From Fimbriimonadaceae bacterium (GTDB lineage Bacteria; Armatimonadota; Fimbriimonadia; Fimbriimonadales; Fimbriimonadaceae), in contig CP075366.1 in assembly GCA_019454145.1 (NCBI GenBank), positions 2,087,564 through 2,151,563 of the forward strand: a DNA stretch of 64,000 bases. Reading direction: 5' to 3'. The notes under the pieces are model-generated. The model was not told the origin of the DNA and searched no databases. It worked only from the letters and a program-made list of their open reading frames with translations. A program made the translations under genes and the position numbers. Every line of letters begins with the position of its first letter. Within the stretch, counting starts at the first letter, position 1. This document shows, piece after piece, positions 32,423-34,465 of the stretch.

Positions 32423-32654
32423 TCCGGTTTAGGCTAGGTTCGCGGGACCCTGGAAATCAAGCGAAAATCTCTATCAACGCTATCACGGCGTGTAGCAAAT
32501 TAATGCCGTATATCGTATTAACAATATCCAGCCATAGCAAATCCAAGTAACATTCTTCCTACTTTTATACAACGGGGCTTCGTCTGATGTATAGTTTTGC
32601 GCGAGGCATTGGGCTTAGCTGATCAAAAAAGTTTTCGGGGAATTAAGGTAAAAG

Positions 32655-32667
32655 TACTTCTGAAGTA
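32655..32667 (+). promoter_or_regulatory. dyad upstream of the three-gene cassette
   Basis: TACTTC and GAAGTA are perfect inverted hexamers around one T, 50 bases before the first cassette gene. A site for a small dimeric regulator is possible, as autoregulation is common in toxin-antitoxin operons, but no DNA-binding domain is recognised in the cassette proteins. Confidence 0.3.
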
Positions 32668-32717
32668 GCTGAAGACGACTGAAATTGAACCAAGAATGAC
32701 TACTAGGCGTCAATGAA

Positions 32718-33485
32718 ATGAGTTTGAGAAGCGAAGACGGAGCAAAATTTGATGACTTCACTTATACGTTGTCGCCTATTCGTGAAGCCATGTTTGGAAT
32801 CCAATTTGAAGAGGATTCACCAGATTGCATACATTTATTGCAAAAGGTGGAGAGCGCCCTTTCTGATTTTAGCTTTTTGGATCATAAAACCAACTCAAAG
32901 CGCAAATCAGGTATCGGGTTTTTCCCGCTAAGCGAAGCTCATCCAACATTCGTGATATCTAACGATTATAGCATCGTGGTTCAGGCTTCAAAGCGCACCT
33001 TCGCCGTTAATTACAGGTCACCCTATAAAGGGTGGCACGTTTTCCAGATTCAACTTAAGAATATTTTTTCCGCTATCGAGGAGAGCCTGTCTGCAAATTC
33101 GATTCATGATACTTGCTTGCGGTATGTAAACCAAGTAAACATGTCAAAAATGGGAGAACGATCTATCTTCGACCTATTTGAACTTTTGCCCCTTTCGCCG
33201 AGTACATATGAAGTTAGGGATGTAGGTAATTTTTCGATAAAGTTAGAGTATGATGTTGCCGAGCAGAGAATGCTTGTAGCTGATATGTCCACTTACTTTG
33301 AAAGTGATGAAAATTATGGAGTTTCCCTTATCGTCTCTTCGTTTGACTTCGTTGAGCAACCTCTGGATTTACGCGCCCTCATGTCTAGTGTTGATGAACA
33401 ACATTTAGAAAATAAAAAGTTTTGGCGAGCAGCAATACGTGACGAGTTGCATCAATTTTATCTGAGCGGAGGAAAGCATGAGTAG
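32718..33485 (+). CDS. TIGR04255-like protein, first gene of AT-rich cassette
   Basis: 255 residues, no signal peptide, predicted cytoplasmic. The layout resembles TIGR04255 family proteins: an N-terminal PIREAMFGIQF strand (about 18-28), the central YSIVVQASKRTFAVN and PYKGWHVFQIQ segments, RYVNQVNMSK near 135, and a C-terminal helix with FWRAAIRDELHQFY, the place where the family has its final acidic helix. The molecular function of this family is not established. Its stop overlaps the next gene by 8 bases. Codon and base use differ from neighbours. Confidence 0.65.
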   Translation: MSLRSEDGAKFDDFTYTLSPIREAMFGIQFEEDSPDCIHLLQKVESALSDFSFLDHKTNSKRKSGIGFFPLSEAHPTFVISNDYSIVVQASKRTFAVNYRSPYKGWHVFQIQLKNIFSAIEESLSANSIHDTCLRYVNQVNMSKMGERSIFDLFELLPLSPSTYEVRDVGNFSIKLEYDVAEQRMLVADMSTYFESDENYGVSLIVSSFDFVEQPLDLRALMSSVDEQHLENKKFWRAAIRDELHQFYLSGGKHE

Positions 33486-34080
33486 CGCAGGTGCTCGATT
33501 AGTCCCAAAATTAGATTTCGACACTAGTAGAAAACTAGCTGATCGTAATCTTTCTTGGATAATCCCTATCTCAAAGGATGTTTTCCCACCCCCTAGTTTT
33601 CCTGACCTAGTAGTTTCTCTCATTTACGATGTAAGAGAAGCTTGCAAAGTTGCAACCGCATTACGTAGTTTGCCATTTTATGGGCCAACTGCAGCTGAGT
33701 ATGCTTGCGTACCTCATCTCTCGATTGATGAGAATCCAGAGTATCGAGATAGCGTGTTAAGGTGTTTTTTCTTAAAAAATGAACCTGAAATTCGTCAGTT
33801 TCTTGAAATTCATCCTAAGTACATTTCCTATCTGGATCAACTTGTCGATAAAGTGAATAATTCTCCTTTTAGCAAATATCTACCTGATCTCGAATTATCG
33901 TTTCTCATGGATTGGGAAGAAGCCGAAATACTTTTTGTAGGAGTATTGTCTTCTTCAAATTATCAATCTTCTGACTTAGTAAAGTGGCTGGTGGAAAATT
34001 GGCAAATTTTTATTGACGATGACTGCATTGATAACTTTGCTTTAGGAGAAGTTGCGGAGAATGTCAAGTCAAATCAATGA
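33478..34080 (+). CDS. unknown protein, second gene of AT-rich cassette
   Basis: 200 residues, cytoplasmic, no family recognised with confidence. The start ATG at 33478 follows a GGAGG-like site (GCGGAGGAAAGC) inside the preceding gene. The C-terminal half (LPDLELSFLMDWEEAEI, then LVKWLVENW) has the feel of an alpha/beta domain in which an acidic strand is followed by a Trp-rich helix. The third gene overlaps its 3' end by 20 bases. Tight packing says the three products act together. By position it is a candidate partner or antidote of the HEPN protein, which is inference. Confidence 0.6.
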   Translation: MSSAGARLVPKLDFDTSRKLADRNLSWIIPISKDVFPPPSFPDLVVSLIYDVREACKVATALRSLPFYGPTAAEYACVPHLSIDENPEYRDSVLRCFFLKNEPEIRQFLEIHPKYISYLDQLVDKVNNSPFSKYLPDLELSFLMDWEEAEILFVGVLSSSNYQSSDLVKWLVENWQIFIDDDCIDNFALGEVAENVKSNQ

Positions 34081-34459
34081 ATTTTTAGACTCAGCAAAGT
34101 GGATTCATAAACTTGGAACACGTGCTCAGAAGGCACATATTAAGGAGAGCTACTTCAGAGCTTCGGCGAGTCGATCGTATTATGCCGCATACCATTCGCT
34201 TCGGGATTTTTGTATAGAAAATTATGGCGAAGTGTGGGATTCATATCAATTAAGAGACGACGTAAAAGATAAGGGGTTACATGAAAGGTTGATCAGGTTT
34301 GTACGAAATGAAGTTGATCGAACACTAAGCGCAAAAATGAGCAATTTGAAAGCGTTACGTACAAAGGCTGACTATCAAATTCTGGAAGCATTTAACGAGT
34401 CAGATGCTATTTATATGCAAGAACGGTGTGCGGAGCTAGTTGAACGGTGCAAGCTTTGA
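34061..34459 (+). CDS. HEPN-domain protein, third gene of AT-rich cassette
   Basis: 132 residues, all alpha. The core SRSYYAAYHSLRDFC holds Arg-x6-His, the HEPN RNase-type signature (consensus R-x4-6-H), and the later LRTKADYQI matches the C-terminal helix of UPF0332/MNT-HEPN proteins. HEPN domains are frequent RNases in toxin-antitoxin and phage-defence systems. Here the usual nucleotidyltransferase partner is absent, and the partners are a TIGR04255-like and an unknown protein. I chose ATG 34061 over TTG 34052. Confidence 0.7.
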   Translation: MSSQINEFLDSAKWIHKLGTRAQKAHIKESYFRASASRSYYAAYHSLRDFCIENYGEVWDSYQLRDDVKDKGLHERLIRFVRNEVDRTLSAKMSNLKALRTKADYQILEAFNESDAIYMQERCAELVERCKL

Positions 34460-34465
34460 ACTGAA

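Follow-up and report, generated by a model that had tools for sequence, protein, structure and literature searches.

The question raised by this locus is what three overlapping genes, of which the last encodes a HEPN protein, do together in an AT-rich stretch between rplK and a HIT-family gene. An earlier, sequence-only reading had taken them as one unit and as a candidate toxin-antitoxin or defence system. Here, the window, i.e., the whole 64-kb stretch of DNA that was analysed, was followed up by comparative and structural methods. The reading that is favoured, at a probability of about 0.6, is that of a mobile tripartite toxin-antitoxin cassette, in which a HEPN RNase toxin would be neutralised by the product of gene 2, with the TIGR04255 protein acting as the guardian of this antitoxin. 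The features on which the text relies are as follows.

32459..34462, no strand: inserted segment that separates rplK from a HIT-family gene and holds the cassette and about 260 bp in front of it (sister-genome comparison, G+C)
32718..33485, plus strand: gene 1, TIGR04255, 255 aa, proposed antitoxin guardian, chaperone-like or sensor (NCBIfam, E 2.3e-13)
33478..34080, plus strand: gene 2, 200 aa, proposed antitoxin (homology to the middle gene of other cassettes)
33478..33717, plus strand: residues 1-80 of gene 2, an N-terminal tail predicted to be disordered (pLDDT; its length tracks the third gene)
33718..34068, plus strand: residues 81-197 of gene 2, a C-terminal domain predicted to be folded (pLDDT >90 for most residues)
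34061..34459, plus strand: gene 3, HEPN, 132 aa, proposed RNase toxin of AF0298 / HEPN-T type (PF05168, phrog_5176, profile)
34172..34174, plus strand: codon of Arg38 of gene 3 (invariant, 49/49)
34280..34282, plus strand: codon of His74 of gene 3, candidate catalytic His (invariant, 49/49; alternative site according to PMC3710099)
34358..34375, plus strand: R-x3-D-Y motif of gene 3, Arg100, Asp104 and Tyr105 (49/49, 48/49 and 49/49)

An inserted segment of distinct composition

The three open reading frames lie on the plus strand as described before, with an overlap of 8 bases between genes 1 and 2 and of 20 bases between genes 2 and 3. The shift in composition, which had been noticed from two single lines of sequence (20 of 60 bases G+C against 36 of 60), holds over a longer distance as well: the 2004-bp stretch has 39.9% G+C compared with 50.2% in the rest of the window, and none of the 2004-bp samples taken elsewhere in the 64 kb fell below 45.7%. 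This segment of about 2.0 kb is absent from a sister genome of the same genus, where some 30 bp are found instead and the spacing from rplK to the HIT-family gene is 171 bp. Outside the insertion, the window and the sister genome align again, at 95% nucleotide identity on one side and 91% on the other. Matches to TIGR04255 and PHROG 5176 were found in none of the seven other genomes of the genus. The cassette arrived by insertion and is probably mobile. No integrase or transposase gene is present inside the insert of about 2.0 kb. A search for promoters and terminators at the locus gave no signal exceeding that of shuffled sequences. The upstream dyad that had been pointed out at 32655-32667 does exist, with 6-bp arms and a 1-base centre, but it is not above chance, because the window contains dyads of this kind at a density of about 0.6 per 260 bp.

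Recurrence and neighbourhood of the cassette

Among 291 genomes of the Armatimonadota, TIGR04255 was detected in 41 and PHROG 5176 in 64. In six genomes, both occur on the same contig, about 480-590 bp apart, and the middle gene between them was read directly in four of these (G105, G116, G184 and G205) and recognised by profile in the other two (G193 and G208). When 84,980 species genomes were scanned by an alignment-based search with the TIGR04255 proteins of these cassettes, 80 loci were obtained. At 55 of them, TIGR04255 is followed by the middle gene and then by HEPN, in this fixed order, and neighbouring genes mostly meet within a few bases; in the 48 cleanest cassettes, the junction of genes 1 and 2 ranges from +13 to -34 bases. 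Judging by record titles, the carriers include Chloroflexota, Acidobacteriota, Nitrospirae and Rubrobacter, as well as Thermosipho, Cloacimonadota, Calditrichaeota and Methanomicrobiales, and cover many phyla and archaea; some of the records are metagenome bins, so that misbinning may account for single placements (e.g., those of L100 and L101, which stem from one sampling). The pairwise distances of the three proteins co-vary, with r of 0.80 for TIGR04255 and HEPN, 0.70 for TIGR04255 and the middle protein and 0.79 for the middle protein and HEPN, and none of 2000 permutations was as high. The triplet recurs across phyla, and the cassette is real and widespread.

The flanks were also searched for defence genes. 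At E<=1e-15, 201 PADLOC models had matches among 119 proteins flanking HEPN cassettes, compared with 2 models among 119 control proteins from this window and from the flanks of secB genes; the contrast is indicative only, as one protein can match several models and the genomes were unmatched. Type I, II and III methyltransferases and specificity subunits lead these matches. A type III Res gene directly follows the HEPN cassette at six loci, and a type III Res-like gene directly follows two other cassettes. On a plasmid of Thermus brockianus, the genes near one cassette include a VapC pair, an Argonaute-PAZ gene and cas6. The flanks that are rich in restriction-modification models are those of other copies; around the window copy itself, a defence gene was not found.

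As a separate observation, the six HEPN cassettes followed by Res (L064, L075, L084, L087, L097 and L098) in places overlap it and look nested inside restriction-modification operons.

The HEPN protein

The assignment of the third gene to HEPN stands. It matches PF05168 with E 5.9e-4, just under the cut-off, and phrog_5176 with E 2.4e-10, while the profile of its family reaches solved HEPN chains in the PDB with E 9.6e-9 and AF0298 (2hsb) with E 0.0017. The Arg-x6-His segment SRSYYAAYH had earlier been taken as its HEPN signature. Across the HEPN proteins of 49 cassettes, however, the His at this position (His45 in the window) is found in the window protein only, with Cys in 34 of the 49, and no canonical Rx4-6H active site is conserved. 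Since this His is unique to the window protein, Rx6H is not the active-site motif. The other segment that had been singled out, LRTKADY, is a genuine motif: R100 and Y105 are invariant, as are R33, R38, Y40 and H74, and D104 is kept in 48 of 49.

For HEPN-T proteins of the AF0298 type (2hsb; PF05168), Anantharaman et al. report that the motif has lost its His, for which a second conserved His further upstream may substitute (PMC3710099). Going by its residues, gene 3 follows this pattern, as the motif Arg100 is kept, the His is replaced and a second conserved His, His74, lies N-terminal to the motif; it differs in belonging to a dedicated three-gene cassette. An RNase activity of gene 3 is plausible because of this likeness, and uncertain because the canonical Rx4-6H motif is missing.

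The middle protein and its tail

The second gene, which had been called unrecognised, indeed has no convincing family in Pfam, NCBIfam, PADLOC or PHROGs. A search with its single sequence found no close relatives in phages, plasmids or the phylum; it took the alignment-based search to detect relatives, as the single sequence had not sufficed. Gene 2 matches the folded-domain profile of the middle genes of other cassettes with E 2.4e-12, and A5 with E 1.5e-13. In an AlphaFold2 model made with 50 family members, residues 1-80 have pLDDT mostly below 50 and appear to form a disordered tail, and residues 81-197, mostly with pLDDT above 90, are predicted to fold into a small alpha/beta domain. It is proposed that gene 2 is the antitoxin.

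Relatives of the folded domain occur in two-gene pairs with HEPN too, and the length of the tail could be compared between the two forms. It was taken from the furthest ATG to the folded domain at de-duplicated loci. With TIGR04255 directly upstream, the tail has 30-101 aa with a median of 74 (n=63 loci), against a median of 22 aa without it (n=33 loci); the difference has a Mann-Whitney p of 9e-8, uncorrected for kinship among these loci, which are related by descent. Of the 33 loci free of TIGR04255, 21 have a tail of at most 25 aa and no recognised abutting third gene, and at 7 of the 12 with a long tail another gene occupies the third-gene slot. There are 26 loci with no third gene, and 21 of these have a tail of at most 25 aa.

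The other five (L039, L246, L256, L199 and L260) are long-tailed without a separate third gene, which counts against the favoured reading. L199 and L260 have shorter alternative starts. In L246, an XRE-type HTH (PF01381, E 7e-14) is fused to the middle-protein domain upstream of the HEPN gene, a fusion that resembles type II antitoxins. In L039 (genome G187), the middle gene starts with MGKKCANPPVVEE, which is TIGR04255-like, and runs into a folded domain of the short-tailed kind; its counterpart is MGKRYANPPIVEA, the start of TIGR04255 in the full cassette of G184, a genome of the same genus. A single deletion may have joined the beginning of gene 1 to the main part of gene 2, so that guardian and tail were lost together; with a match of 14 residues (E 0.18), which is short, this reading is no more than suggestive.

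The TIGR04255 protein

The likeness of gene 1 to TIGR04255 that had been noted is well founded. It scores 50.6 bits against NCBIfam TIGR04255 ('sporadTIGR04255'), above the curated cut-off of 30, over positions 5-249 of 252. With gene 1 in this family and gene 2 without one, the absence of the usual MNT gene is confirmed as well. The NCBIfam model carries no function; here, the family is linked to toxin-antitoxin modules. Neither TIGR04255 nor DUF6941 is mentioned in the literature searched.

The AlphaFold2 model of gene 1 (mean pLDDT 86) shows a duplicated sheet-and-helix arrangement in two halves. Its best Foldseek match is AdoMetDC, with E 6e-4 but a TM of 0.3, and its best VIA match is to the phosphagen / McsB kinases (Z 9.0, rmsd 4.1, 189 aligned), where an identity of 8-11% may mean just a common arrangement. 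Further weak matches are to viral proteins, including a TATA-binding protein, and none of the matches obtained with this model is convincing. An alignment of 67 members has one invariant column and no evident catalytic cluster. A match of the TIGR04255 profile to 9hnh (PDB) was set aside as a coincidence arising from a repeat protein.

SecB was an obvious candidate, because gene 1 gives a faint match (E 0.005) to PD-T4-9_C; among the 67 members, it is given by the window protein alone. The identity of TIGR04255 with SecB is unsupported. In a profile-profile comparison with 38 SecB sequences (hhalign), the probability was about 1%, equal to that of controls; PF02556 (SecB) matches none of the 67 members, and SecB is not among the fold matches listed for gene 1. 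As TIGR04255 is not detectably SecB, a chaperone role of gene 1 would rest on analogy.

Comparison with known systems

The closest analogy is with the toxin-antitoxin-chaperone (TAC) systems, namely HigB1-HigA1-Rv1957 of M. tuberculosis and CmdTAC/PD-T4-9, the latter an anti-phage system (PMC5105189, PMC11618068, PMC9519451). Like them, the present cassette has three adjacent genes, here in fixed order at 55 of the 80 loci and with predicted toxin and antitoxin roles. In both published cases, the toxin targets RNA, as is proposed for HEPN here. Also in common are the reuse of the third gene with several toxin families and an extension of the antitoxin that is linked to the third gene. In TAC systems, this extension imposes the need for a SecB-like chaperone (PMC5105189), which is drawn away by a phage capsid protein (PMC11618068). 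The differences are equally clear. The third protein here is TIGR04255, not detectably SecB, and the toxin is HEPN, whereas that of CmdTAC (PD-T4-9) is an ADP-ribosyltransferase. The order is guardian-antitoxin-toxin instead of toxin-antitoxin-chaperone, and the extension is N-terminal, unlike the known addiction region, which is C-terminal. A dependence tail at this end is feasible, since the TAC tail was functional when grafted onto the N-termini of other proteins (PMC5105189).

With HEPN-MNT (HepT-MntA), the cassette shares a conserved C-terminal Tyr and a toxin that belongs to the HEPN-T clade and whose gene lies 3' of that for the antitoxin. It differs in that there is no nucleotidyltransferase, the predicted neutraliser being of an undescribed alpha/beta family, and in the extra first gene. 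No HEPN system with this pairing is described in the literature searched, which agrees with the sequence-only reading. A new tripartite form of toxin-antitoxin system is the most likely identity of the cassette.

Proposed mechanism

In the mechanism that is proposed by analogy with the TAC systems, the HEPN protein would be an RNase toxin with a site of the AF0298 type, composed of His74 with Arg38/Arg100 and Tyr105. Gene 2 would be its antitoxin and bind it through the C-terminal domain, with the long N-terminal tail making the antitoxin dependent on gene 1. The product of gene 1, translated first, would bind the tail, and the antitoxin would stay folded or shielded from proteases. Once gene 1 is titrated off or inhibited, e.g., by a phage protein, the antitoxin would fail, HEPN would cut RNA and growth would stop. 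Toxicity, neutralisation, tail binding, the phage trigger and a role in defence are what we infer. The partners, for which neutralising or sensing had been suggested before, are thereby refined to an antitoxin and its guardian. As a candidate for a HEPN-based toxin-antitoxin or defence unit, the cassette has good support from its recurrence in fixed order across phyla and from its restriction-modification neighbours; the Rx6H signature and the dyad dropped out.

Exchangeable partners and alternative readings

The positions of the proposed guardian and of the toxin are both variable. At four cyanobacterial loci (L253, L255, L257 and L262), a family of 228-236 aa without a Pfam match replaces TIGR04255 before the antitoxin-HEPN pair. 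A DUF3467 protein (PF11950, above cut-off) occupies the slot upstream of the HEPN pair in L032, and small proteins are found in the third-gene slot of L239 and of the viral contig L148. On an Enterococcus faecium plasmid (L274), a DUF6941 gene is followed by a short middle gene with a hydrophobic N-terminus and by HEPN; this is possibly a further case of a replaced third gene. Conversely, TIGR04255 precedes other partners. At five loci (L079, L090, L129, L133 and L137), it is followed by an unrelated middle gene and a PIN/VapC toxin (PF01850; VapC models), and a search for TIGR04255-free relatives of these PIN-type middle genes gave one chance-level match only. At four loci (L104, L106, L123 and L131), it is followed by a QGD-F...SQSCDL protein, which is immediately followed by a type III Res-like gene in L106 and L131, and at four more (L011, L018, L134 and L140) by another protein; neither has an assigned family. 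Thus, TIGR04255 is a general add-on, and the common element is the gene at the first position.

As an alternative, gene 1 could be the sensor proper: a ligand from the phage, either protein or nucleic acid, would bind to its duplicated sheet, upon which gene 1 would actively trigger HEPN, and the tail would serve as a tether and not as a switch of folding or degradation. This would suit the modelled architecture of gene 1, its weak matches to AdoMetDC, a phosphagen kinase and a viral TATA-binding protein, and its combination with many different toxins, as expected of a reusable sensor. However, short-tailed two-gene pairs exist and are presumably functional without gene 1, and the unrelated proteins in the third slot suit the guarding of an antitoxin better than one common ligand, so that this reading is held to be unlikely. 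Less probable still is that the middle protein is no antitoxin and, as part of a HEPN ribonuclease complex, guides RNA or binds the substrate, the cassette then being a defence nuclease that acts directly. Fold searches with the folded domain of gene 2 gave no confident match and nothing above Z 5.4; the weak matches are to KH-like and ribosomal RNA-binding domains, which would agree with such a role, as would the cassettes inside type III restriction operons. Against it, the gene order and tight overlap are typical of an antitoxin followed by a toxin, and the XRE-HTH fusion and the swap for PIN/VapC pairs fit toxin-antitoxin modules. Least credible is an enzyme that modifies HEPN or the antitoxin in place of the MNT nucleotidyltransferase, which AMPylates HEPN at a conserved Tyr: invariant Tyr105 may equal the conserved C-terminal Tyr of MNT-linked HEPN (PMC3710099) and phosphagen and protein-arginine kinases come up in the fold search, with Z 9 across about 190 residues, but these matches, at 4 Å, may reflect the common arrangement only, the family has no evident catalytic cluster around its one invariant column, and an enzyme acting on HEPN leaves the association with PIN toxins unexplained.

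The tripartite toxin-antitoxin reading may, tentatively, be extended. The upstream slot could be a general guardian position, in which TIGR04255, DUF3467, DUF6941 and the cyanobacterial family of about 230 aa, interchangeable and apparently unrelated, would each impose dependence via an N-terminal tail and turn two-gene pairs (HEPN, PIN and others) into phage-sensing switches without SecB; this extension is somewhat less probable than not.

If the main reading is true, TIGR04255, so far a sporadic family without function, would, through its links to several kinds of toxin-like partner, be a control element that is common in bacterial defence. In the literature searched, chaperone-dependent toxin-antitoxin systems are described with SecB-like proteins only. 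A second, apparently unrelated solution, with its tail at the opposite end, would show the principle to be general, and the natural two-gene and three-gene forms of one toxin-antitoxin pair allow a direct comparison.

Some further arrangements may be recorded. At L088, L096, L127, L132, L139 and L141 and the five loci named above, taken together, PIN/VapC toxins of at least three kinds are seen after TIGR04255 and unrelated antitoxin-like genes. The QGD-type proteins, putative effectors of about 180 aa with QGD(I/F)F and M(S/T)QSCDL-like motifs, occur with TIGR04255 in L013, L023 and L007 too. In L020:1348-3358, TIGR04255 has an unusual partner: behind a protein of 209 aa comes one that is retropepsin-like (CIYVPFRIEG...LVDTGSPW), with no Pfam match. 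Lastly, in L103:3956-6900, a second set of TIGR04255, middle gene and HEPN lies right behind the first, apparently as tandem cassettes.
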